NCBI GenBank assembly: GCA_017557785.1
Contig: JAFYYA010000074.1
Location: forward strand, 1 to 32,252
Origin: Salinivirgaceae bacterium
GTDB lineage: Bacteria > Bacteroidota > Bacteroidia > Bacteroidales > SZUA-534
Direction: 5' to 3'
Length of the DNA: 32,252 nt
Below the pieces are notes generated by a model. It was not told the origin of the DNA. It saw nothing but the letters and a program-made list of their open reading frames with translations, and did not search any database. Position numbers and translations under genes: made by a program. This document shows, in pieces, positions 1,522 through 32,252 of this stretch (positions are counted from its first letter, which is position 1; each line of letters begins with the position of its first letter).

Positions 1522-4005
1522 ATGAAACTGTCATTTTCAACCCGTGGATGGGCCGATATGTCGTGGAGCGATATTCTCAACAACGCAAGCGAAATGCGCT
1601 TTTCGGGCATCGAGATATACAACGTGTTCAAAACCCCTGAATTTGTGGCCAAAGGCGGGCCGTTCAACAAATACTCGCTAATGGCGTCGTTGCGCGATTT
1701 GCGCGAGCACAAACTCGCCATTCCCTGCTTCGACAGCTCGCTCGACCTTTCGGAGGACAACCCTGCAATGATTGCCGAAATGCAGCAACTCATCGGCATT
1801 GCCGCCGATATGCACAGCCCTTATGTGTGCGCTTTCGCGAAGAAGGGCACCGTTGAGGCCGTGAAACAGAATCTGACCAAACTCATCCCCGTTGCTGAAG
1901 AGAAAAACATCACCATACTGATAAAAACCAGCGGAATCTACGCCGACACCGCGCTGCTGCGTGAACTGCTCGACTTTTTCGCCTGCGACCAGATTGCCGT
2001 CATTTGGGACGTGCACCATCCGTACCGCGACAAGGGCGAGACACCCGCGCAGACCATCACCAACCTTGGCGCCTATGTGAAGCACGTGCACCTTCGCGAC
2101 AGCGACGACGCCAACCGCTACAACATTATCGGCGAGGGCAACTTCCCGATTTCGGACGTAATGAAGGCTCTGTCGTCAGTCGATTACGACGGATTTATCT
2201 CGCTCGAGTGGAAGCCAGAGTGGATGCTCGACTTCACCGACCGCGACGTCATCTTCCCGCATTTTGTGAACTATATGAGCCAGTTCGAGAACACCCGCGG
2301 CAAACGCAGCGAGCTGTATCCGAACCACGACGGCTCGGGCTATTACATTTGGAAGAAGGACGAACTGCTGAATATGACATTCTCGCAGGTTTTGGACCGC
2401 GTGGTTGAGGAGTTCCCCGACCAGTACTGCTTCAAATACACCACTTTGGACTACACCCGCACCTATGCGGAGTTCCGCGACGACGTCGACAATTTCGCTC
2501 GCGCCCTTGTGTCGCTCGGCGTGCGTCCAGGCTCAAAGGTGGCCGTTTGGTGCACCAACATACCTGCTTGGTACATAACATTTTGGGCAACAGTCAAGAT
2601 TGGTGCCGTGCTTGTGACGGTGAACACCGCCTACAAGATTCACGAGGCCGAATATCTGCTTCGCCAGTCCGACACTCACACGCTTGTAATGATTGAGAGC
2701 GCCTTGGACTCGAACTACCGCGCCATTATCAACGAGCTCTGCCCCGAAATCGCGACAAGCACGCCAGGCAAACCGCTTCATTGCAAGCGCCTGCCGTTCC
2801 TGCGCAACGTTATCACCGTGGGCTTCCGCCAGAAGGGCTGCCTGACACTGCAACAGGCTATGGACCGCCATAGCCTTGTGCCGCTCGACGAGATTCAGCG
2901 TATGGCCGCCGCCGTCAAACCCGACGATGTCTGCAATATGCAGTACACCAGCGGCACCACAGGTTTCCCGAAGGGCGTGATGCTGACTCACTACAACGTG
3001 GTGAACAACGGCAAATGTATCGGCGACCGTATGGGACTCTCGACAGCCGACCGAATGATGATTCAAGTGCCTATGTTCCACTGCTTTGGAATGGTTCTGT
3101 CGATGACTTCGTCGATGACGCACGCAGCCACAATGTGCCCGATGCCGTACTTCTCGGCCAAATCGTCGTTGGCCTGCATAAACCAGGAGCATATAACCTG
3201 CTTCAACGGCGTGCCCACAATGTTCATTGCAATGTTCAACCACCCCGACTACCGTCACACCGACTTCTCATATATGCGTACAGGCATTATGGCAGGCTCG
3301 GGCTGTCCGCCCGAACTGATGCGCCGTGCCGCCGAACCGTCGGAGATGAATATGCGCGGAATTGTGAGCGTTTACGGCCAGACCGAATCGGCGCCAGGCA
3401 GCACAATGTCGGCTTGGACCGACTCTATCGATGTCCGCACCGAAACGGTGGGCTACGCCTTCCCGCACGTGCGCTGCAAGGTGGTTGACCCCGAAACGGG
3501 CCTTGAGGTTCCGCCCAACACCAACGGCGAGTTCTGCGCCAAGGGCTACAACGTGATGAAAGGCTACTACAAGATGCCAGAGGCCACAGCGCAAACCATT
3601 GACGCTGACGGTTGGCTGCACAGCGGCGACCTTGCCTGCGTTGATGAGAACGGCAACTACAAAATCACAGGCCGCTTGAAAGATATGATTATCCGCGGTG
3701 GCGAGAATATCTATCCTAAAGAGATTGAGGAGTTTATCTATACCCACCCGAAGGTGAAGGACGTTCAGGTTATCGGTGTTCCCGACGAGAAATACGGCGA
3801 GGAGGCAATGGCCAGCATTATCCTGAAAGAGGGCGAGGAAATCAGCGAACCCGAAATGCGCGAATTCATTATGGGCCGCCTTGCCCGCCACAAGGTTCCG
3901 CGCTATATCGATTTCGTCAAATCGTTCCCGATGAACGCCGCAGGCAAAATCCTGAAATACAAGATGCGCGAGGAGGCTGTCGAGAAATTGGGGCTCAAAA
4001 AATAG
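1522..4005 (+). CDS. Fusion: xylose-isomerase-like TIM barrel + AMP-dependent acyl-CoA synthetase/ligase
   Basis: 827 residues. About 1-265 form an AP-endonuclease-2/xylose-isomerase-like barrel: GIEIYNVF near the start, then VIWDVHHPYRDKG, YVKHVHLRDSD and GFISLEWKPEW, which carry the usual metal-binding Asp, His and Glu. The strand that normally ends in a ligand Glu reads ITILIKTSG, so that Glu may be replaced. From about 286 an ANL-superfamily ligase follows: phosphate loop Y475TSGTTGFPKG, Y618GQTE, the ATP-ribose Asp in HSGD703, hinge G717RLKDMIIRGGENIYP, and the adenylation Lys K809 in AAGKILKYK. All ligase motifs are intact, so it should activate a carboxylic acid to an acyl-AMP and then the CoA thioester; the substrate is not readable. 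The closest feel is to medium-chain acyl-CoA ligases. The barrel may make or modify the acid. The ATG at 1522 follows the LeuA-like gene by 38 bp. Both domains are continuous in one frame with no stop. Confidence 0.9.
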   Translation: MKLSFSTRGWADMSWSDILNNASEMRFSGIEIYNVFKTPEFVAKGGPFNKYSLMASLRDLREHKLAIPCFDSSLDLSEDNPAMIAEMQQLIGIAADMHSPYVCAFAKKGTVEAVKQNLTKLIPVAEEKNITILIKTSGIYADTALLRELLDFFACDQIAVIWDVHHPYRDKGETPAQTITNLGAYVKHVHLRDSDDANRYNIIGEGNFPISDVMKALSSVDYDGFISLEWKPEWMLDFTDRDVIFPHFVNYMSQFENTRGKRSELYPNHDGSGYYIWKKDELLNMTFSQVLDRVVEEFPDQYCFKYTTLDYTRTYAEFRDDVDNFARALVSLGVRPGSKVAVWCTNIPAWYITFWATVKIGAVLVTVNTAYKIHEAEYLLRQSDTHTLVMIESALDSNYRAIINELCPEIATSTPGKPLHCKRLPFLRNVITVGFRQKGCLTLQQAMDRHSLVPLDEIQRMAAAVKPDDVCNMQYTSGTTGFPKGVMLTHYNVVNNGKCIGDRMGLSTADRMMIQVPMFHCFGMVLSMTSSMTHAATMCPMPYFSAKSSLACINQEHITCFNGVPTMFIAMFNHPDYRHTDFSYMRTGIMAGSGCPPELMRRAAEPSEMNMRGIVSVYGQTESAPGSTMSAWTDSIDVRTETVGYAFPHVRCKVVDPETGLEVPPNTNGEFCAKGYNVMKGYYKMPEATAQTIDADGWLHSGDLACVDENGNYKITGRLKDMIIRGGENIYPKEIEEFIYTHPKVKDVQVIGVPDEKYGEEAMASIILKEGEEISEPEMREFIMGRLARHKVPRYIDFVKSFPMNAAGKILKYKMREEAVEKLGLKK

Positions 4006-4111: not shown

Positions 4112-4129
4112 TTATCGACAGGCAACCCT

Positions 4130-4255
4130 GCAACCATTCCCGCCGCCACCGCGTCATATAACTGCAAAAAGTTTTAATTTTGGCGTATGGCGACACAAAC
4201 ACATACTTTCGGGACAAATTCCAAATGGATTCCGGGAGGTAAAACTTCAGGCGGA
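4130..4255 (+). repeat. Direct repeat, copy A (head of mini-cassette 1)
   Basis: This segment recurs at 6607-6733. Over the first 104 bases (4130-4233) only two differences are seen (C/T near 4141 and T/A near 4157). After that the copies diverge gradually, and copy B carries one extra A. The shared part covers the presumed promoter and the first ~16 codons of a small gene. The two copies are 2,477 bp apart in the same orientation, so they could recombine and delete the ATPase gene and one cassette. Confidence 0.9.
4175..4182 (+). promoter_or_regulatory. Possible -7 box (TAATTTTG) just before the small gene
   Basis: TAATTTTG is an exact match to the Bacteroidota -7 consensus TAnnTTTG. No convincing -33 TTTG is seen at the expected spacing. 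The box ends only 4 bp before the ATG at 4187, so a transcript from here would be leaderless or nearly so. It is kept unchanged in copy B. Confidence 0.35.
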
Positions 4256-4354
4256 ACTACAGAAGCTGTGTTAGTCGGTTCAGAGAATGTAATACATAAT
4301 AGAGATTGGAACACTTTCATAAGTTTCTTTGACAACGTCGAACCAATTAAATAA
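4187..4354 (+). CDS. Small protein of mini-cassette 1 (55 residues, unknown)
   Basis: A 55-residue reading frame beginning MATQTHTFGTNSKWIPGGK and ending FFDNVEPIK. I do not recognise it. It is supported by a related frame in copy B. That copy is near-identical for its first 16 residues; after undoing one inserted A it continues with KTSGG, EAVL and a VIHN/VITHN match, so similarity extends past the near-identical DNA at the protein level. No signal peptide or membrane segment is visible. It ends 7 bp before the next gene, suggesting translational coupling. The conserved head and changing tail resemble the organisation of polymorphic effector genes, but no toxin motif is visible, so that is only an analogy. 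An antisense frame across the same repeat also exists and cannot be fully excluded. Confidence 0.55.
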   Translation: MATQTHTFGTNSKWIPGGKTSGGTTEAVLVGSENVIHNRDWNTFISFFDNVEPIK

Positions 4355-4361
4355 CAAAAGA

Positions 4362-4862
4362 ATGAGAGAATACAATTTTATATATGCAATTGAGCATAAT
4401 GAAGTACAACAATATCTTTTAGGTGAAGGAAAATACTTTATTCCAGAACGAGAGTATTGCAATAGACCATTGCACGATATAGGAAGTGCAATGCATGATA
4501 TAAGACTTTGCTTAGCCAATAAATTAATTGACGAGCAAAAAACGTATGATATAATAGACGAGCATTTTATTAAAATATTAAGTAGTAATAATAGTCCAGA
4601 AACATTATTAAACGTAAGCATGTATATATGGGCCTATTTTGTTGACTTTGTGGAGGAAAAGAAGTTAACAACGGAGTGGCACATTTCTGATGAATTGTTG
4701 TCGTTAATACGAGCAGGCTACCGACGTTATATTGATGATGGCAAGCGTTGTGTTGTATCTGAAGAACAGATGAAACAGTGCGAATTGTACAAAACGACAT
4801 TTAAAGAATTATTGGAAACTAGAAGGCGCTTATTTAAAGAAAGATTTAATTTAGAAATTTAA
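4362..4862 (+). CDS. Partner protein of mini-cassette 1, immunity-like in character (unknown)
   Basis: I start this at the ATG at 4362 (MREYNFIYAIEHNEVQQYLL) rather than an in-frame TTG at 4329. The start then lines up with the paralogue at 6823, and 4329 lies inside the preceding gene. It has 167 residues, is acidic, looks mostly helical, and has no signal peptide or transmembrane segment. It shares with the protein at 6823-7281 the pattern AIExxExxxxLxGEGxY near the N-terminus and a similar helical middle (LLNVSMYIWAYFVDF against RLYNSIIMLFDYAND). Identity is otherwise low. It is much more AT-rich than the genes on either side, which suggests separate ancestry. Size, helical content and position behind a small variable gene resemble immunity proteins of polymorphic toxin systems; that is inference. 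No family is recognised. Confidence 0.75.
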   Translation: MREYNFIYAIEHNEVQQYLLGEGKYFIPEREYCNRPLHDIGSAMHDIRLCLANKLIDEQKTYDIIDEHFIKILSSNNSPETLLNVSMYIWAYFVDFVEEKKLTTEWHISDELLSLIRAGYRRYIDDGKRCVVSEEQMKQCELYKTTFKELLETRRRLFKERFNLEI

Positions 4863-5002
4863 AACTATTGTCCTATTAAAAGCAGACTTGTTGCTCTCGG
4901 AAATGATTGAGAAACAATATTATATATAGATTATATAATGGATGTTCCTACTGATATGAGGAGCATAAAGATTCTTCGTAAAATACTATCACTCTGTGTA
5001 AT

Positions 5003-5064
5003 CAGTGTCATCTGTGCGAGAAAGAAATCCGTTAAATCTGCGTTCCCGATAGTTATCAGGACTG
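5003..5064 (+). repeat. Dispersed intergenic repeat, copy 1
   Basis: Bases 5025-5064 match 7336-7375 at 36 of 40 positions, and 5003-5020 match 7440-7457 at 17 of 18. The two blocks appear in opposite order in the two places, so this is a modular, shuffled non-coding element rather than a duplicated gene. The CCCGAT-ATC core is a decayed version of the palindromes at 7356-7439. It lies inside the 388-bp gene-free stretch 4863-5250, which is otherwise filled by the tandem repeats listed next. Confidence 0.7.
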
Positions 5065-5088
5065 TCAAGGGGTGTATGCGGGGAAACA

Positions 5089-5131
5089 TTTTCGCCAACT
5101 CGCCGAACAAATTTTCGCCAACTCGCCGAAC
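5089..5131 (+). repeat. Tandem repeat, two 20-bp copies 23 bp apart
   Basis: TTTTCGCCAACTCGCCGAAC is present exactly at 5089-5108 and again at 5112-5131, joined by three bases. It lies upstream of the 33-bp-period repeats and about 120 bp before the ATPase start. It may be a protein-binding site or a small mobile repeat. Confidence 0.85.
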
Positions 5132-5167
5132 GAATGGAAAAATGTATAATTCGATTACGCGCAAACT

Positions 5168-5248
5168 TGCAAAAAGTTACTACTTTTAAGCAAAACATTC
5201 TGCAAAAAGTTACTATATTTGTGTCGTAAAACTTGCAATAAGTTACTG
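5168..5248 (+). promoter_or_regulatory. Three direct repeats with exact 33-bp period (candidate operator) before the ATPase gene
   Basis: TGCAAAAAGTTACTA occurs exactly at 5168-5182 and 5201-5215, and as TGCAATAAGTTACTG at 5234-5248, two bases before the ATG at 5251. Both spacings are 33 bp, about three helical turns, so bound proteins would sit on the same face. The end of the second copy overlaps an exact -7 box. This is the geometry of an operator that shuts off its own gene, or of iterons. The string TGCAAAAAGTT also appears 20-30 bp before the small-gene starts at 4187 and 6664, hinting at a shared regulator. Confidence 0.75.
5214..5221 (+). promoter_or_regulatory. -7 box TATATTTG of the ATPase gene
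   Basis: Exact TAnnTTTG match 29 bp before the ATG at 5251. It overlaps the end of the second 33-bp-period repeat, and the third repeat lies within the predicted leader. No clean -33 TTTG is visible, as would fit a promoter that is weak or controlled. Confidence 0.5.
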
Positions 5249-5250
5249 CT

Positions 5251-6552
5251 ATGAATATCAGCCGCAAGATTATCAACGATTTAATCAAATGGAAGAATAA
5301 ACCACAAAAAGAAGCTCTGCTTATATGCGGTGCAAGGCAGGTGGGAAAGACAACCATTGTCCGCCAATTTGGGCGTAAGCACTACAAGCATTTTGTGGAA
5401 ATCAACTTTGAGCAAAGCCCCGAGGTGCGGCAAGCCTTTGAGGGCAACCGCGACGCCGATTCCATTATCGGCCGCTTGAGCGTAATGGGCTACGGGCCGT
5501 TTGTCGAGCGGCAGACGCTTGTGTTTTTCGACGAGATTCAAAGTTGTCCCAATGCCCGCACGGCGATAAAATTTTTGGTTGAGGACGGACGGTTCGACTA
5601 TATCGAGACGGGCTCGCTTTTGGGTATCAACTATGCCAATGTCAGCAGTTATCCCGTTGGTTTTGAGCGACAAATACAGATGTATCCGCTCGATTTTGAG
5701 GAATGGCTTTGGGCAAATGGAGTGAGTGCGCAAGTTGTTGATTCTGTGCGGAAATCATACACCAACGAAGTGCCCGTCGACAGTTTTCTGCACGAGCAGC
5801 TGATGAAGCATTATCGGGCGTTTCTGATTGTTGGAGGAATGCCCAAAGTGGCCGCAACATATCTTGAAAATCCCGATTTCGCCGAGACGCTCAATCAGCA
5901 ACGAATCATTATCGACAGTTATCGGCTTGATATTGCGAAATATGCGGGTGGGCAAAAAACGCGGGCAAAACGTTTTTTCGATGCCATTCCGTCGCAACTT
6001 GCCAAGGAGAAAAAGCGGTTTGTGCTTTCCGATTTGGAAAAGACCGCAAGTATGCAGAAATACGAGGATGCGGCGCAGTGGTTATCAGATGCAGGAGTGG
6101 CTGTTTTCTGCTACAATACCCATTCGCTCGAGTTGCCGTTTGAACAGTACGAGAGTCGTAACTTATTCAAAGTGTATTTGTTAGATACAGGTTTGCTTTG
6201 CAATATGTGGGGCACCGATGTTCAGTGGCAGGTGCTGCAAGGCGACCTTGCTATAAACGAGGGCGCGCTGACCGAGAATTTAGTTGCCGCCGAACTTGTC
6301 AAACACGGCCATAATCTTCATTATTACGACTATAAGAGCCGAAACGAACTCGATTTTCTTATTCAGGAACAAAACCGATTGTCGATTTTAGAAGTAAAAT
6401 CAGGCAAAGAATACAAGAAACATACGTCGCTAACCAACACATTGTTAGATAATTCGGCAAAAATCGGGCGCAGTGTGGTTTTCTGCAAGTTCAATGTCGA
6501 AAAAACTGACCAAATAACATATCTCCCGCTTTATATGGCAATGTTTGTGTAA
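5251..6552 (+). CDS. AAA_14 / DUF4143 family ATPase
   Basis: 433 residues. The N-terminal P-loop domain has Walker A G27ARQVGKTT and Walker B TLVFFD94E95IQ, followed by IETGSLLGI, the sensor region typical of AAA_14. The C-terminal half is DUF4143. Its end carries ELDFLI followed by ILEVKSG, the spacing of a PD-(D/E)XK nuclease-like fold, with an E-K pair but of unproven activity. Such proteins are very abundant and often multicopy in Bacteroidota; their role is unknown, with toxin-antitoxin, mobile-element and DNA-binding roles suggested by fold only. The ATG at 5251 is preceded by the three-repeat candidate operator. The gene sits between the two mini-cassettes, within the segment that recombination of the direct repeats would remove. 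Its codon use is intermediate between the AT-rich cassettes and the flanking core genes. Confidence 0.9.
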   Translation: MNISRKIINDLIKWKNKPQKEALLICGARQVGKTTIVRQFGRKHYKHFVEINFEQSPEVRQAFEGNRDADSIIGRLSVMGYGPFVERQTLVFFDEIQSCPNARTAIKFLVEDGRFDYIETGSLLGINYANVSSYPVGFERQIQMYPLDFEEWLWANGVSAQVVDSVRKSYTNEVPVDSFLHEQLMKHYRAFLIVGGMPKVAATYLENPDFAETLNQQRIIIDSYRLDIAKYAGGQKTRAKRFFDAIPSQLAKEKKRFVLSDLEKTASMQKYEDAAQWLSDAGVAVFCYNTHSLELPFEQYESRNLFKVYLLDTGLLCNMWGTDVQWQVLQGDLAINEGALTENLVAAELVKHGHNLHYYDYKSRNELDFLIQEQNRLSILEVKSGKEYKKHTSLTNTLLDNSAKIGRSVVFCKFNVEKTDQITYLPLYMAMFV

Positions 6553-6606
6553 ACATTCTTATTCGCAAAAATTGTAGGAATGCACTGCGTACGTCCGCAT
6601 AGACCC

Positions 6607-6733
6607 GCAACCATTCCTGCCGCCACCGCGTCAAATAACTGCAAAAAGTTTTAATTTTGGCGTATGGCGACACAAACACATACTTTCGGGACAAATTCCA
6701 AATGGATTCCAGGTGAAAAAAACTTCAGGTGGA
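6607..6733 (+). repeat. Direct repeat, copy B (head of mini-cassette 2)
   Basis: Near-identical to 4130-4255 (two mismatches in the first 104 bases). It contains the same TGCAAAAAGTT string, the same TAATTTTG box (6652-6659) and the same ATG context. It begins about 55 bp after the end of the ATPase gene. Confidence 0.9.
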
Positions 6734-6826
6734 TGTAATGAAGCCGTCTTGGATAATATGGTCATTACGCATAATAATGATATTAAAAAATTGAAAAATT
6801 GTTTTTCAATAAAAGAATACAAATGA
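6664..6826 (+). pseudogene. Frameshifted copy of the mini-cassette small gene
   Basis: From the ATG at 6664 the frame reads MATQTHTFGTNSKWIPGEK and then stops at 6736-6738, after 24 codons. The shift falls in a run of seven A (6714-6720), where copy A has a shorter non-repetitive stretch. Removing one A restores KTSGG, EAVL, a VITHNND segment and a frame that runs to a TGA at 6824-6826. That TGA overlaps the ATG of the next gene (ATGA at 6823-6826), a classic coupling arrangement, so the shifted frame is likely the ancestral or functional one. Options are a true pseudogene, slippage at A7 giving some full-length product, or a sequencing error. Confidence 0.6.
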
Positions 6827-7281
6827 AAATGATAGAAGACGCAATAGAGAAAGGAGAACTACACCTTTTCCTTATGGGGGAAGGCGGTTATAAATGTCAA
6901 GGAAGAAGTGATTATCCTAACCCAACAGATTATTTAGCTTGTTGGGAAAAAGAAATAATACCTTATTTCAATAAAAATAATTCAATAGAGTCTATTATGA
7001 GATTATATAATTCCATAATTATGCTTTTTGATTATGCAAATGATATAAATCTTGGATTATATTCAATAGCTGCTCATATCGAGTGGTGCAATTATTTTGA
7101 AAAGGAAGAAAAAATTCAATTTCATTTAGATTGGAAAACTATCGCCGAAAAGCTGAAACTTGCTGTAGAGATTAATAAAGAACGCCTTATTGCAGATACA
7201 CGTTGGGCAGGCGCAGAGTGGAATAGTAGTCAAGGATTATATGAACCGATATGTCGAGTACTGACAAAATTATTAGCATAA
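6823..7281 (+). CDS. Partner protein of mini-cassette 2, paralogue of the 4362 gene (unknown)
   Basis: Started at the ATG at 6823 (MKMIEDAIEKGELHLFLMGE), which overlaps the stop of the frame-restored small gene and lines up with the start at 4362; a TTG at 6799 is in frame but less likely. It has 152 residues, helical and acidic, with no signal peptide or membrane segment. It shares AIExxExxxFLxGEGxY with the 4362 protein, plus a comparable hydrophobic helix in the middle; the rest has diverged strongly while the DNA upstream stayed near-identical. The region is AT-rich. An immunity-like role is inferred only from size and arrangement. Confidence 0.75.
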   Translation: MKMIEDAIEKGELHLFLMGEGGYKCQGRSDYPNPTDYLACWEKEIIPYFNKNNSIESIMRLYNSIIMLFDYANDINLGLYSIAAHIEWCNYFEKEEKIQFHLDWKTIAEKLKLAVEINKERLIADTRWAGAEWNSSQGLYEPICRVLTKLLA

Positions 7282-7335: not shown

Positions 7336-7457
7336 AAATCCATTAAATCTGCGTTCCCGATGGCTATCGGGACTGCGTTCTAAAAAGATCTGTGAAAATC
7401 TGTGCACCCCGATAGTTATCGTCCCGATTGCTATCGGGGCAGTGTCGTCTGTGCGAG
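7336..7457 (+). repeat. Dispersed repeat, copy 2, with CCCGAT...ATCGGG palindromes
   Basis: Holds the second copies of the blocks at 5025-5064 and 5003-5020. It also contains CCCGATGGCTATCGGG (7356-7371) and a 9-bp stem CCCCGATAG (7407-7415) / CTATCGGGG (7431-7439). Between lie AATCTGTG-type strings. No gene is seen in 7282-7501; the stems could end transcription from the cassette, though no T-run follows. Confidence 0.7.
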
Positions 7458-7501: not shown

Positions 7502-8137
7502 ATGAATATGAAGTTAATAGTTACTATTGTCACGTCGCTCGCTTTGCTGTTTACGGGGATTTATATCGCTCTTATGCTTGGAATCAATTCCACACCAGGA
7601 GCATTCAACTATCCCGACAGTAATATCTCGGAACCCAACAGACAAGCGATAGAAAAAACACTGAAAGTATTTCAAGAAGGTTACGCGTTGCGCGATGCAT
7701 CGAAAATCGGCGAGTGCATTGCCCAAACCATTGATACCGCTTCGATTTTTATTTTGGGCACCAATCCCAACGAAATACTCAAGGGAAAAGACGGGGCGCA
7801 GGGGCTCTTATACGGCGATTGGACATATTGGGGCAGTGTAAAATATGATATCGACCGCCTCTATGCCGACCAAATCACCGACAGCATTGTCTATGTGGTT
7901 TTCCCCGGAAATATTACTCTTGATGTTAACAAGATGAACTTCCCGCTGCAAGTTACAGGTATGATGGTGCAAGATGAGAATGGCCAGTGGAAATTCTCGA
8001 AAATGCAGTTCATATATGGTTGGAACACCAATTATATCATCTTTGCCCGCACTGCGGCATACGGAACGCTGATTTTCTTGATAGCGCTGCTGGCACTCGT
8101 TGGCATTGTGAAGTGGATAGTGGCCCTGAAGAAGTAG
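7502..8137 (+). CDS. Membrane-anchored NTF2/SnoaL-like protein (unknown role)
   Basis: 211 residues with a hydrophobic N-terminal segment (about 4-26) and a second near the C-terminus (about 178-207) followed by a Lys-rich end. The middle (about 47-172) reads like an NTF2/SnoaL-type alpha+beta domain. It has EKTLKVFQEGYALRDASKIGECI, the helix-with-counter style opening typical of that fold, then strands ending in VYVVFPGNITLDV and MMVQDENGQWKFSKMQFIYGW, close to the 'GxWKF' strand common in these domains. The domain probably sits in the periplasm, held by both ends. No catalytic residue can be named. An alternative start is the ATG two codons later (7508). It is a single-gene unit, with its own -7 box and a strong terminator after it. 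Confidence 0.75.
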   Translation: MNMKLIVTIVTSLALLFTGIYIALMLGINSTPGAFNYPDSNISEPNRQAIEKTLKVFQEGYALRDASKIGECIAQTIDTASIFILGTNPNEILKGKDGAQGLLYGDWTYWGSVKYDIDRLYADQITDSIVYVVFPGNITLDVNKMNFPLQVTGMMVQDENGQWKFSKMQFIYGWNTNYIIFARTAAYGTLIFLIALLALVGIVKWIVALKK

Positions 8138-27593: not shown

Positions 27594-27612
27594 AAAAGGA
27601 TTTAAAAAAATC

Positions 27613-27640
27613 GTAGAGACGCGCCATGCACCGTCTCTAC
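27613..27640. repeat. 28-bp palindromic element, copy 1
   Basis: GTAGAGACG (27613-27621) and CGTCTCTAC (27632-27640) form a 9-bp stem around a ten-base centre. Two more copies with the same arms and differing centres lie at 27872-27899 and 27926-27953. Confidence 0.85.
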
Positions 27641-27660
27641 AAAAATGTGCGGATAAGGAA

Positions 27661-27857
27661 CGTCTGGAAGACGTGATTTGCATAACCGGCTGCAAGCGGA
27701 GCGCAGCTGCCGGAACATGACGTGTAAGGGGACAACACTCTGAAAGAGTGAACCTTGGCATGGTTCAATCCTTCGGATTGGGTCTTTGGGGCGTGGCATA
27801 ACACCACGGGTTACGCTGCGCTCACCCGCGGTTATGCAGATTTTGTCCTTCGGACAA
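27661..27857. repeat. Chain of short hairpins, several with three-base loops
   Basis: Non-coding stretch packed with inverted repeats: CGTCT-GGA-AGACG (27661-27673); CCGGCTGC against GCAGC-T-GCCGG (27686-27713); CACTC-TGAAA-GAGTG (27736-27750); TGAACC-TTGGCA...GGTTCA (27749-27767); CAATCC-TTC-GGATTG (27766-27780); a 12-bp imperfect stem about 27799-27835; TTGTCC-TTC-GGACAA (27843-27857). Reading frames on both strands cross it but follow no codon pattern. It fills most of the 413-bp gap 27564-27976. Confidence 0.8.
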
Positions 27858-27871
27858 TTTTGTTTTCTACC

Positions 27872-27899
27872 GTAGAGACGCGCCATGGCACGTCTCTAC
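27872..27899. repeat. 28-bp palindromic element, copy 2
   Basis: GTAGAGACG and CGTCTCTAC arms around CGCCATGGCA; the centre is itself partly palindromic (CCATGG). Confidence 0.85.
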
Positions 27900-27925
27900 A
27901 ACAATTGATGCATCCCATAAAACAC

Positions 27926-27953
27926 GTAGAGACGGTGCATGCACCGTCTCTAC
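27926..27953. repeat. 28-bp palindromic element, copy 3 (perfect palindrome)
   Basis: Arms GTAGAGACGGTGCA and TGCACCGTCTCTAC are exact complements, giving a 14-bp perfect stem with no spare loop bases. It lies 23 bp after the stop of the giant repeat gene and could end its transcription or stabilise its mRNA 3' end. Confidence 0.9.
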
Positions 27954-27976
27954 AAAAACGAATTATTAATTCCTTG

Positions 27977-30900
27977 TTATTTATTCAGCAGTTGCTCAAC
28001 CAGGCGTTTCAATTCGTCTATCTGTTGCTGCTGACTCTCCACTGTGGCCTGCAGCTCGTCTTTCTCGGCTTTCAGCTCTTTTACGGCCTCGATTAGGATT
28101 GGGCCAAGGGTTGAATACTCAACCGACTTGAAACCTTCGGCATCGGTATTGACCAGCTCGGGGAACTCTGCTTCCAGCTCTTGTGCTATTACGCCAATGT
28201 GTTTCTTGTCATCGTAGCCGTAGTCCAGGTTATCGACAGAAACACCCTTTGCGGCGGCCATCTCCTCGCGATTCTTCCAGTAGAACGATACACCGCGCAG
28301 TTTAAGCACTTTGTCCAACGCACTGGTAAGCGGCTGTACGTCTTTCTTCAGACGGGCGTCGCTTGAACCACTCCAAGCGGTTGTGCCACCAGCCTGACCA
28401 GAAGAATAAACGCCATAGTTTGTAGTACCGCCACTTGCAGTTCCATAAACTCCGTAATTAGTAGTCGTGCCAGCTGCAGACCCCCTAACACCATAAGTAG
28501 CTGTGGTTCCACCTTCAGCGCGTGCTGAAAAACCAAGGCTATATTTATTAGAGGCAGAATTTGTATTGTATGCAACTACGGCAGCATGTTTTCCATATAA
28601 ATTATTCCAAAATACGCCATACTCACCTCTTTGTGAATATACGTTATTCCAATGGTAATCACTGGAGCCTAAATTGTAACTGTTATTGGCTGATGGTTCT
28701 ATATCGCCACTCGTATTAATATAATTTGTATATAAATAATGCCAACGATAGTTGCTTGAACCTAAATAATATGAGCCAGTTGATACCGGGTAAATAGAGC
28801 CACTGGTGATAGAACCTGTTGTGTTGATATAATTAGCATACAAGTATTTCCAACGCTTGCTGCTTGAACCCAAATAATACGACCCACTTGTTGAAGGAAT
28901 AAAGTTGCCATAAACTTCACCTCCATCATCTATTTTTAAGTCGTAGACTGTCAAATCATCAACTTCCATATCAGTAACATATAATTTTCGCCACGGTACG
29001 TCACTTGATCCTAAATAATCACCAGTTAAAGTACCAGCAATATTAACAGACCGTGCGGAAAAATCGCCATAAATAAGTGGCAGCGCTTTAGCACTGTCGC
29101 CCTCTATGGCCAATATGTTTTGTGCATTATTTTTAATGTATGGTGTGCTGTTCAAGCCATAGTTGCCTATGATAATATTATTGCTGCCATTTTTGATATT
29201 ATAGCCGGCGTAATTGCCCATTAATATATTACGATTACCAGTTTCTAAACTACGGCCAGCTCCTGTACCAACCATTACGTTTCTAGTAGCAGTTGTGCTC
29301 GAAAGGCCTGCATACTCACCAATATATACGTTGCTAAAGCCAGTTGTGTTGGCATGACCAGAATAATATCCGACAAAAACATTATCATTACCATTTGTAT
29401 TTGAGAAACCTGATTGGTCACCTATAAATACATTATACTTATAGTCAGAATTTGATGTGCCTTCTCCTGCTTTATTGCCAATAACAACTGAACTACCGAT
29501 TTTTCCTGCTTTTTCTGCTGCACTTTCTCCCAAAACAACATTACCACCACCTGCAACATTCGCAGCAGCCGCTTTATAGCCAATAAACACGTTAAAATTG
29601 CCTGATGAGCTTTTCACACCTGCATAGGTGCCAAGGTAAACATTGTCGTAGCCCGAAACGTTGCTGTAGCCAGCCTCATTACCCATGAACACGTTATTGG
29701 AGCCGGTGTACCTGTCTTCTTGCTGGCCAGTTCGCGGATTAGTTTCTGTCTGATTATTAGTGAATTTTTTTCCCTCATTTGAATATCCTGCCATATTACC
29801 AAGGAACACATTATTTCTTCCAGCCCAGTTTTTGTAACCAGTTTGGTAACCAATGTAAATATCGTTAACGGCATCAGTATAGTTGTGTCCTTTACAAGCT
29901 TCCTCACCAATAACAATGGTTTTGCTCATCTTATATGCTGCCAAGGCGGCATTTGTTCCCAAAATCACGTTGCTTTCGCCGGAAACATTGGTCACTCCTG
30001 CATTGTTACCTATATAAACATTGTTTTTGCCATCAACATTTTTCACACCCGCATAGTTTCCAAGGAATACATTGTTGTAGCCGGTGGTGTTTTTGTAACC
30101 TGCATTATTGCCAAGGAACACGTTGTTAGAGCCTTTGGGGAAAGTTTGATTGGCACCGCTTGTTCCTGATAACGGATTGAAAAGCGTTATTGTTTCAGTT
30201 CCGCCGTTTGTCGAATGGCCGGCATCAGTGCCAATAAACACGTTATTCTTACTTGTTTGGTTGCTGTAGCCTGCGTTGTAACCCATCATAACATTGTAGC
30301 TACCGGTTGTGGTATTAAAGCCTGCCAGGTTGCCTATTAAAACATTATAATCATATTCGCTACTCCCCTGTTGTCCACGGCCGGCATAAGTTCCTAAAAC
30401 CACGTTACCATAGCCAACTCTTTGATAAAGACCGGCCTTGTGTCCTAAGAACACATTTTCACTTCCATATTCTTGTGAAAAACCAGCATAGTTGCCAACA
30501 AACACATTGGTGAAGCCATTTTCGGTACTATAACCAGCCTGGTTGCCAATGAACACGTTGTTAGATGTTCCATCATATTCTATCTCATCACCAGTAATCG
30601 GGTCATAATCATAATAGTAAATGCCATCACTTGCAGAATAGCCTGCCTTATTGCCAAGGAATATGTTGTTCGTACCGTAATTGTTGTTGTAGCCAGCCTG
30701 GTTGCCTATCATCACGTTGTTTGCGCCAGATATATTGCTCATGCCAGCCTGATAGCCAATGAAAACATCGTCAACTGAATTAGTGTATTGTGAACCTTTG
30801 CCTGCCTCTTGGCCAATAGCAATGGTGCACGTCATCCTGATAGCATCTTTGGCGGCGCTCTTACCCATAACAACATTGCTGTTGCCGGCTTTGGTGCCCA

Positions 30901-32252
30901 TTGCCGCGCTGTCGCCCAAAAAGACGTTGCTGGAACCGGCGACATTGCCTGAACCAACTTCGGTGCCTAAATAGACATTGTTTTTGCCAGTGGTGTTGAG
31001 ACGACCGGCATTATAACCAAGGAAGGTGTTGTTAGATGCCGTATTGTTCCTACCTGCCTGATGGCCGAGGAAGACATTGTAACTGCCTGTGGTATTAGCG
31101 TAACCTGCAGTGTTGCCTATAAACACGTTGCTTGCGCCTGTGGTGTTTGCGCTACCGGTGCTTGTTCCAAGGAAGACGTTGTTGCCTCCTGTTGTTGTGC
31201 TCAAACCAGCCTGATAGCCCAGGAAGACGTTCTTCGATGTTGTGTTATTTAAACCTGCCTGATAGCCCAGGAAGACGTTTTGTGATCCCCCGGTGTTGTT
31301 ATAACCTGATTGATAACCCAGGAAAACGTTGCCTGCGCCTGATGTGTTTTTATAACCAACCTGATAGCCAAGCATGGTGTTGTACGATGCTGTGTTCATG
31401 TAACCTGCACCATCACCCAGCAAGACATTGCTAACGCCAGTGCTATTATAGAAACCGGCATAGTTACCCAGGAATACGTTGTTTGATGCCGTAGTGTTGG
31501 TCTTTCCAGCCCGGTAGCCCAAGAAGACGTTGCTACCACCTGAGGTGTTCTTATTACCAGCTTCGTAACCCAGGAAGACGTTATTGTTGCCAGAAGAGTT
31601 TGAGTAACCTGTATTGTTACCGATAAACACGTTGCTTGCGCCTCCCTGGTTAGTGTAACCGGCATTGGTGCCCAGGAAGACGTTGCTTGAGCCAGTTGTG
31701 TTGGCTGTTCCTGTATTTTTACCTACAAACACGTTGCCATATCCTGTATTATTGGTTGCCGTACCGGCATTGTTACCCACAAAGGTATTGTCAACGCCTG
31801 CTGTTCCGTTTGGTTTAACATTTTTTCCTGCATCGTAGCCTGCAAAGAAGTTCTGTGCGGTAATGTTCATATAGCCTGCACTGCCTTCGTCGCCCTTCTC
31901 GGTAACTGAGAAGCCGTTTTTGCCTTCGCCGGCGCCTTTACCTTCAACGCCAAAGCCGCTCTTGCTGCCGCTGCCGTTAACATAAACGCGTGTGCTGTCG
32001 GGGGTTACCTCCATCACATCGGATTCAGTAGTGCTCTTGGTGGCGTCGCGTCCTGTTACAAGGAATCCGCTGCGTTTCATCTTGCTGGCGTCGGTGTCGA
32101 ATTTCACCTGTGTACCGTCGGTGGCAACCTTCATATAGTTTGGCGTGCTGCCGTCTTTGGTTGCTTCGCGGCCTGTTACAAGGAATCCGCTGCGTTTCAT
32201 CTTCGCGTCATTCTCAAGCTGGTCGTCGATGTACACTTTCGTACCGTCGTCG
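27977..32252 (-). CDS. Giant 17-residue-repeat surface/fibre protein with C-terminal S74 intramolecular chaperone (5' end outside window)
   Basis: Partial: the frame stays open to the window end (DDGTKVYIDDQLEN precedes the first GTG at 32236), so the N-terminus is missing. At least 1424 residues. Counted from 32236: two or three head repeats with KMKRSGFLVTGR (about 12-130); roughly 48 repeats of a 17-residue unit, SNNVFLGNxAGYxNTTG (about 147-1024); a fibre-like part with three YYLGSSxxRWxYLYxxYINT units and YGVYG repeats (about 1070-1285). It ends with a Peptidase_S74 chaperone (from about 1288, SSDARLKKDV, then KKHIGVIAQELEAEFPELV) and a terminal coiled coil. In phage tail spikes S74 domains trimerise the fibre and cleave themselves off before the Ser of S-D-x-R-L-K; that motif is kept. 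A trimeric beta-helix or beta-roll surface adhesin is inferred. No T9SS CTD is seen at its end. Confidence 0.9.
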   Translation of the reverse strand, partial: DDGTKVYIDDQLENDAKMKRSGFLVTGREATKDGSTPNYMKVATDGTQVKFDTDASKMKRSGFLVTGRDATKSTTESDVMEVTPDSTRVYVNGSGSKSGFGVEGKGAGEGKNGFSVTEKGDEGSAGYMNITAQNFFAGYDAGKNVKPNGTAGVDNTFVGNNAGTATNNTGYGNVFVGKNTGTANTTGSSNVFLGTNAGYTNQGGASNVFIGNNTGYSNSSGNNNVFLGYEAGNKNTSGGSNVFLGYRAGKTNTTASNNVFLGNYAGFYNSTGVSNVLLGDGAGYMNTASYNTMLGYQVGYKNTSGAGNVFLGYQSGYNNTGGSQNVFLGYQAGLNNTTSKNVFLGYQAGLSTTTGGNNVFLGTSTGSANTTGASNVFIGNTAGYANTTGSYNVFLGHQAGRNNTASNNTFLGYNAGRLNTTGKNNVYLGTEVGSGNVAGSSNVFLGDSAAMGTKAGNSNVVMGKSAAKDAIRMTCTIAIGQEAGKGSQYTNSVDDVFIGYQAGMSNISGANNVMIGNQAGYNNNYGTNNIFLGNKAGYSASDGIYYYDYDPITGDEIEYDGTSNNVFIGNQAGYSTENGFTNVFVGNYAGFSQEYGSENVFLGHKAGLYQRVGYGNVVLGTYAGRGQQGSSEYDYNVLIGNLAGFNTTTGSYNVMMGYNAGYSNQTSKNNVFIGTDAGHSTNGGTETITLFNPLSGTSGANQTFPKGSNNVFLGNNAGYKNTTGYNNVFLGNYAGVKNVDGKNNVYIGNNAGVTNVSGESNVILGTNAALAAYKMSKTIVIGEEACKGHNYTDAVNDIYIGYQTGYKNWAGRNNVFLGNMAGYSNEGKKFTNNQTETNPRTGQQEDRYTGSNNVFMGNEAGYSNVSGYDNVYLGTYAGVKSSSGNFNVFIGYKAAAANVAGGGNVVLGESAAEKAGKIGSSVVIGNKAGEGTSNSDYKYNVFIGDQSGFSNTNGNDNVFVGYYSGHANTTGFSNVYIGEYAGLSSTTATRNVMVGTGAGRSLETGNRNILMGNYAGYNIKNGSNNIIIGNYGLNSTPYIKNNAQNILAIEGDSAKALPLIYGDFSARSVNIAGTLTGDYLGSSDVPWRKLYVTDMEVDDLTVYDLKIDDGGEVYGNFIPSTSGSYYLGSSSKRWKYLYANYINTTGSITSGSIYPVSTGSYYLGSSNYRWHYLYTNYINTSGDIEPSANNSYNLGSSDYHWNNVYSQRGEYGVFWNNLYGKHAAVVAYNTNSASNKYSLGFSARAEGGTTATYGVRGSAAGTTTNYGVYGTASGGTTNYGVYSSGQAGGTTAWSGSSDARLKKDVQPLTSALDKVLKLRGVSFYWKNREEMAAAKGVSVDNLDYGYDDKKHIGVIAQELEAEFPELVNTDAEGFKSVEYSTLGPILIEAVKELKAEKDELQATVESQQQQIDELKRLVEQLLNK
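29165..31798 (-). repeat. Coding tandem array, about 48 units of 51 bp
   Basis: Each unit encodes a variant of SNNVFLGNxAGYxNTTG. Third-codon positions and the x residues vary freely, so the array is old rather than freshly amplified. Units lengthen at three places by inserted loops (around 30560-30620, 30130-30200 and 29700-29770). Three units-plus-neighbours repeat a different block (SNVVMGxSAA...IGxEAxKG...) at about 30770-30890, 29860-29975 and 29430-29555, which shows duplication of larger blocks. Confidence 0.92.

Follow-up and report, generated by a model that had tools for sequence, protein, structure and literature searches.

Why should one short piece of DNA stand twice, almost unchanged, at a single locus and lead each time into different coding sequence? 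The locus lies in contig JAFYYA010000074.1 of a Salinivirgaceae bacterium (assembly GCA_017557785.1), from which the stretch analyzed, here called the window, comprises 32,252 nucleotides; the two units occupy positions 4130 to 7281. Each has a shared opening, termed the head, which covers a promoter-like sequence and the first codons of a small reading frame, and each ends in a partner gene encoding a protein of 166 or 152 residues. The original prediction, made from the letters of the window, placed the units within polymorphic toxin/immunity biology and took the small protein for the effector. The analysis presented here agrees with the first part of that view but not with the second, since the small frame is better explained as the stub of a toxin gene. 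We consider it probable, with good confidence, that two orphan immunity units occupy a variable hotspot here, each consisting of a head, the 3' stub of a toxin gene, and an immunity gene. On this interpretation the locus is a site of orphan immunity linked to a class of toxins whose genes adjoin those for type IX secretion substrates; it represents a known kind of module with an unusual shared head.

The repeated head and its small frame

The heads lie within a direct repeat of 118 nucleotides and 94% identity (4127-4244 and 6604-6721). Over the approximately 104 base pairs for which about two mismatches had been claimed, the alignment of 4130-4233 with 6607-6710 indeed holds 2 in 104. Only these two places matched in a search of the window's own assembly (E 1.8e-63 and 2.5e-49), values that exclude a chance repeat. 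The upstream part of head 1 (4130..4186, plus strand) contains GCAACC (4130-4135), a 15-nucleotide spacer, GCGTC (4151-4155), an AT-rich stretch, and TAATTTTG (4175-4182), an arrangement that resembles a promoter; that of head 2 (6607..6663, plus strand) has GCAACC at 6607-6612, GCGTC at 6628-6632, and TAATTTTG at 6652-6659. The last of these boxes, TAnnTTTG, which had been predicted ahead of the start, is separated from the ATG by 4 nucleotides in both copies, its promoter role being putative. The AT-richness of the region relative to its surroundings was also as predicted, with G+C fractions of 0.345 in unit 1 and 0.332 in unit 2, as against 0.55 in the ligase gene to the left and 0.488 in the whole window. 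It should be noted that the source is a metagenome assembly (3.0 Mb, 153 contigs, 7% contamination), beside which it may be set that the order of ATPase gene and head found in the window recurs in two other genomes, G007 and G008.

In unit 1 the head opens a frame of 55 residues (4187..4354, plus strand), the first codons of which come from the head itself, whereas the remainder, GTNSKWIPGGKTSGG..., is most likely a stub left in frame from the 3' end of a large polymorphic-toxin gene, as suggested by a coding test, by matches to toxin C termini, and by an analogous frame in genome G010. The encoded protein is 91% identical to its counterpart in G007, and of the 15 bases that differ between the two frames 12 occupy third positions, and 8 of the 13 changed codons are synonymous; the coding signal on which the original prediction depended is thus present in copy 1. 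In G007 this nearly identical frame leads into different sequence and a 98-residue gene. The tail of the window's stub (75% identical over 28 residues) is also found in G002:C45 before a 199-residue gene, with an ATGA overlap. A protein of about 55 residues had been predicted in both units, and in this respect copy 2 departs from the prediction. Its frame is closed early by a frameshift, after 24 codons (6664..6738, plus strand), and likeness to copy 1, 54.5% over 22 residues, continues only in another frame (6719..6823, plus strand; to 6826 with the stop), the stop of which overlaps the start of the 152-residue gene as ATGA (6823-6826).

The two partners are probable orphan immunity genes, judged by sequence and position. 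The 166-residue protein is encoded at 4362..4862 (plus strand), 7 nucleotides behind the stub, and the 152-residue protein at 6823..7281 (plus strand). The latter appears to be a distant paralog of the former, and the weak protein-level likeness that had been predicted was recovered by BLASTP (23.5 bits, E 0.001, over 17 residues) and by global alignment (23% identity).

Toxin genes and probable orphan immunity

To trace the parentage of the stub, a profile built from three small frames was run against 393 genomes of the order. The best two places outside the window's own genome, at E 2.6e-4 and 3.7e-4, belong to open frames with lengths of 1018 residues in G231 and 1593 residues in G203; the third place (E 0.0019) is in a broken frame of 46 residues. 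The match NEFWIPGGKTSGG lies 33 residues from the C-terminal end of a 968-residue frame in G231, and GEWVPGGYTKSGT lies 47 residues from that of a 1592-residue frame in G203, the motif W-I-P-G-G-K-T-S-G-G of the stub also closing two large frames in other Bacteroidales. The G203 protein contains fn3 and has a Por_Secre_tail gene upstream; zincin matches in the G203 and G231 frames are below threshold (E 0.02 and 0.05). Behind the G203 frame, with a TAATG overlap, comes a 149-residue gene related to the 166-residue partner (BLASTP E 3e-5 in a single comparison). Because the matches are positioned at the ends of large frames and because of this neighbor gene, we judge a chance match between stub and toxins to be unlikely. 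The end domain of the G231 frame, its last ∼150 residues, shares 41.5% identity (E 3e-18) with the end of a Rahnella haemagglutinin-repeat protein, behind which an 87-residue gene follows at 9 nucleotides. The toxin tips of contact-dependent inhibition (CDI) systems are the CdiA-CT/CdiI pairs; the G231 domain is like them in also ending the Rahnella protein with a small gene next to it, but the carrier protein and the secretion route are different.

At several other heads the joined frame is demonstrably a remnant of a toxin gene. Complete toxin frames of 1606 (G000) and 1228 residues (G010) contain fn3 and, by eye, a zincin-like HELAHGAF motif, and have differing ends; both have SprB/Por_Secre_tail genes ahead of them and genes of 191 and 305 residues behind them. 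When 21 frames started by heads (of 29 heads collected) were compared with four toxin frames of the genus, 8 matched one of them at E ≤ 0.01. At locus L079 the first seven codons of a head are followed by sequence in which residues 8-164 of a 906-residue frame are 85% identical to the interior of a large G003 frame. At the window's own site in G010, residues 17-64 of a 64-residue frame share 78% identity with the C-terminal 50 residues (862-911) of the toxin frame at G007:C69, and the 171-residue gene behind the 64-residue frame is 74% identical to the gene adjoining that toxin. Similarly, a cassette gene in G005 matches the neighbor of the G010 toxin at 91% identity over 282 residues. Among 32 cassette-type genes behind or near heads, 3 match (E ≤ 2e-11) one of seven genes located after toxin frames or after head-joined toxin pieces. 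It had been stated that partners occurring independently of the head would speak against the proposed system; relatives of some other cassette genes do lie directly behind large toxin frames, but in the comparison with these seven genes those of the window's two partners are not among them.

The mechanism that would account for these observations begins when the 3' part of a toxin gene, together with its immunity gene, joins a head. Later loss of toxin sequence would leave a stub running from the head to a stop close to the immunity gene, and no toxin would be made because the toxin body is missing. The head would supply transcription and the start codon, the short stub would probably lead ribosomes to the immunity gene, and the immunity protein would guard the cell from toxins of the same class coming from relatives. 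That class would comprise large proteins with fn3, a zincin-like region, and a variable C terminus, encoded beside SprB-repeat and type IX sorting-tail genes that suggest its secretion route. In 9 of 16 heads measured, the next start is located between −16 and +24 from the last base of the stop, and close distances of this kind would suit translational coupling; the distance is 8 in copy 1 and, after the frameshift, 85 in copy 2. Apparent intermediates are visible, namely complete toxins, the head-joined half toxin of 906 residues, frames of 121 to 51 residues, and an immunity gene behind a bare head. They form a natural series for how a weapon gene may turn into a defense gene and lend indirect support to the view that toxins of this class act between relatives.

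Several results weigh against extending this interpretation to the window's own units. The stub-toxin matches cover 20-37 residues and are the best of many, and their E values (2.6e-4 and 3.7e-4) apply to a single genome when 393 were searched. The two stubs of the window and that of G007 match none of the four toxin frames of the genus, neither partner convincingly matches any of the seven toxin-adjacent genes of the genus or is among the 3 of 32 cassette genes with such matches, and that total is itself low. The link between the 166-residue partner and the 149-residue gene of G203 is a weak one (E 0.0013 by phmmer among 3963 frames, below five loci picked for likeness to the query), and the 152-residue partner gave no match to that gene, nor directly to any gene adjacent to a toxin. 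Across the 393 genomes neither partner has a clear homolog; outside its own genome the 166-residue protein reached E 0.0026 or worse, in 6 genomes, and the 152-residue protein 0.0062, in one genome. Scans of both partners against Pfam and NCBIfam returned no immunity family. With the small frame included, NCBIfam gave no match and Pfam gave weak lines at most (RelB_like_antitoxin for the small frame at E 0.029, below its cut-off; DUF1722, 0.11; ALOG, 0.16; F54D1_6_C, 0.21). PADLOC did not match either partner, no relatives were found in plasmids and viral contigs, and sequence searches of the PDB gave nothing below E 0.9. A structure prediction of the 166-residue protein, made from two sequences, had a mean predicted local distance difference test score (pLDDT) of 53.8.

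Spread of the head and rival explanations

Head DNA matched in 7 of 11 genomes of the genus at E ≤ 1e-3, in five of these over the first ∼60 bases or less, and a head model picked up weaker members. The sequence that follows the head differs among genomes, as the original prediction had supposed it would. In all, 29 heads were collected, spread over 13 sites and 9 of the 11 genomes; they come from stretches retrieved by matches and are not a census. The spacer is 15 nucleotides in all 29, although 14-16 were allowed, but the collecting pattern demanded both boxes and the TTTG box, with one mismatch permitted, and the uniform layout is therefore partly a product of selection. The heads have a sharper left than right limit: in 94 alignments between sites, the left end falls −4 to 0 from GCAACC in 82, 5-18 bases further left in 11, and inside the head in 1, and the right ends scatter from 44 to 896. 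One such alignment joins the ligase site of the window to a G007 site behind an ATPase gene (228 columns, 92.5%). Outside the genus, an order-wide search with the head model gave short matches (E 0.001-0.01) in 24 of 295 genomes, so that at the sensitivity used the head appears clearly in this genus alone. In G007 (C4:26584-27007), four weak head-model matches are spaced ∼126-130 bases apart in the manner of a tandem array.

The window's own site shows the same exchange of content behind the head. Its left side can be read in 9 genomes, of which 7 have a head there (G000, G002, G003, G005, G008, G009, and G010). G007 has a cassette with no recognizable head, and in G001 the site is empty, with 134 bases between the flanking genes. 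A cassette is thus kept by 8 of the 9 readable genomes, and six kinds can be distinguished by the nearest cassette gene, which encodes 166 residues in the window, 163 residues (hydrophobic by eye) in G002, G007, and G008, and 373, 207, 186, or 171 residues elsewhere.

How heads came to be at so many sites is the point on which explanations diverge most. The rival that fares best, and that is compatible with orphan immunity, treats the head as a shared promoter type of one regulon that is not itself mobile, the cassettes being swapped by homologous recombination in flanks or dispersed repeats. Between genomes, the flanks of the ligase site agree at about 90-97%, dispersed repeats are present at the right sides of cassettes, and a fixed 15-nucleotide spacing with a variable spacer sequence is what a promoter might display. 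On the other side, heads at different sites can be nearly identical with the spacer included (the window and G004:C87 agree at 95.6% over 68 bases), and whole units recur at different sites of different species, as in the 899-column, 92% alignment between the ligase site of G005 and an oxidoreductase site of G010. Genome-wide, the two-box pattern occurred 23 times compared with 16 for its reversed form, and a looser version 207 times compared with 319; this lack of excess speaks against an established regulon. In pattern matches from six genomes, heads included, a spacing of 15 accounted for 30 of 126 (other spacings, 8-18), a peak that is partly due to the heads themselves being counted. We regard this explanation of the spread as a serious possibility that stops short of being probable. 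With respect to the promoter itself, two readings stand side by side: the GCAACC and GCGTC boxes may be a promoter for an extracytoplasmic function (ECF) sigma factor with a CGT-type −10 element, or TAnnTTTG may be the −7 element of a primary sigma factor, with the mRNA starting near the ATG.

A more far-reaching proposal, which is tentative and in our estimation rather doubtful, is that the head is a dedicated mobile module for capture and expression. Such a module would move between intergenic sites along with an acquired toxin 3' end and immunity gene; what is left of the toxin would be a translated stub, and the immunity gene would stay switched on, perhaps through a regulator held in common with type IX secretion genes. 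If this were true, the head module would be an immunity-collecting system unlike both integrons and the arrays of acquired interbacterial defense (AID) genes.

Two further explanations concern the units rather than the spread of the head, and both compete with the orphan immunity interpretation. It is unlikely that the units are relics in decay and now without function. Stubs, internal losses of toxin sequence, and the frameshift in copy 2 are all signs of decay, but both partner frames are intact, change in the small frame of copy 1 is purifying, and a cassette persists at the hotspot in nearly every readable genome. Very improbable is a miniature effector/immunity or toxin-antitoxin pair in which the 55-residue protein is the toxin and the partner its antidote. 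The purifying change in a coding copy-1 frame, the variable partner 7 nucleotides behind it, and the weak RelB_like_antitoxin line would fit such a pair; it is opposed by the frameshift of copy 2 in front of an intact partner frame, by the occurrence of the same sequence at the ends of large toxin frames, by the nearly identical G007 frame that precedes other sequence and a 98-residue gene, and by the toxin remnants at other heads. A leader/core arrangement of a ribosomally synthesized and post-translationally modified peptide (RiPP) was rejected for lack of a constant enzyme as partner, and phase inversion because the heads are direct repeats.

Related systems and the surroundings of the units

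Orphan immunity units have several known relatives. Standalone toxin/immunity cassettes and polyimmunity loci of polymorphic toxins have been described (Zhang et al. 2012, PMC3482391), and the present units share with them the exchange of a 3' toxin piece and immunity gene as a unit and the existence of orphan immunity genes. A 3' end of a toxin gene that is complete elsewhere was found for the window stub, by a short match, and strongly for its G010 analog (78% over 50). The differences from those cassettes are that here the toxin piece is often a short stub fused to a common promoter and start at unrelated sites and that the units are single rather than in strings. The parent toxins resemble the TANFOR class of Bacteroidetes (Jana et al. 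2020, PMC7073777) in being large proteins with Fn3, a variable C terminus, a downstream immunity gene, and neighbors with SprB repeats or sorting signals of the type IX secretion system (T9SS), in genomes that have that system. Of these features, fn3, SprB, and Por_Secre_tail were found at the parent loci of G000 and G010, fn3 and Por_Secre_tail at that of G203, and GldL, GldM, and GldN of the secretion system itself in G007, the sole genome tested for these. The TANFOR domain itself (TIGR02542) gave no NCBIfam match at E ≤ 0.1, it not being established that the library includes this model. Unlike TANFOR loci, the window holds stubs and immunity-like genes only.

The AID genes and their recombinase-associated form (rAID), which targets type VI effectors (PMC12247911, PMC10470768), are likewise orphan immunity genes located away from toxins, AT-rich, and exchanged in gut Bacteroidales; rAID has conserved intergenic motifs of its own, and the head, too, is a conserved motif between genes. 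The present units differ from rAID in the lack of a recombinase found alongside, the lack of an array, and the class of toxin. No tyrosine recombinase was detected in six of the seven frames of at least 100 residues between positions 71 and 8137, the seventh, a 122-residue minus-strand frame, being left unscanned, and the same six frames contained no integron integrase. In place of an array of co-oriented short immunity genes there is one partner per head, with an ATPase gene between the units. An Rfam scan of the window returned no family at the gathering threshold, whether Rfam models attC being unchecked. Among open-access titles and abstracts on orphan immunity and polymorphic toxins, none described a shared promoter/start module of this kind, which is no proof of its absence. 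The literature considered here links orphan immunity in Bacteroidales with type VI secretion; the present locus points to a parallel stock directed against polymorphic toxins encoded beside type IX substrates and suggests a swappable store of protection against neighbors.

Both flanks of the hotspot are conserved. On the left it is bounded by an 827-residue protein (1522..4005, plus strand), residues 279-826 of which are an acyl-CoA ligase; its first ∼280 residues are, by eye, of sugar-isomerase type, an unusual fusion that is present in several genomes of the genus. The right flank encodes a 211-residue protein (7502..8137, plus strand) present in 10 of the 11 genomes. In G007, gldL, gldM, and gldN of type IX secretion lie just upstream of the hotspot. 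The gene that separates the two units (5251..6552, plus strand) encodes a 433-residue ATPase (AAA_14/DUF4143; PADLOC PDC-S01). ATPase genes that look alike by eye are near other heads or toxin loci at eight places, an association that could merely reflect how common such genes are.

A protein of 162-169 residues, apparently membrane-bound, recurs behind heads. In G008 a 139-residue protein (L005, 1012-1431) has a different front and shares the last ∼56 residues, as if the front had been swapped between constant ends. The right sides of cassettes were considered as a second constant end and rejected, the sequences there being dispersed intergenic repeats. One such repeat, AAATCTGCGTTCCCGATAG..., is found in the window at 5025-5064 and 7336-7375 and, at several other sites, again on the right of cassettes; it is a possible substrate for recombination. 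Further along the window, a 40-nucleotide palindromic repeat (GTAGAGACG...CGTCTCTAC) occurs three times at 27606-27958, and similar ones are present at the right sides of cassettes in relatives. Positions 27977-32200 of the minus strand hold a 1407-residue frame composed of repeats with a 51-nucleotide period, which has no NCBIfam match.

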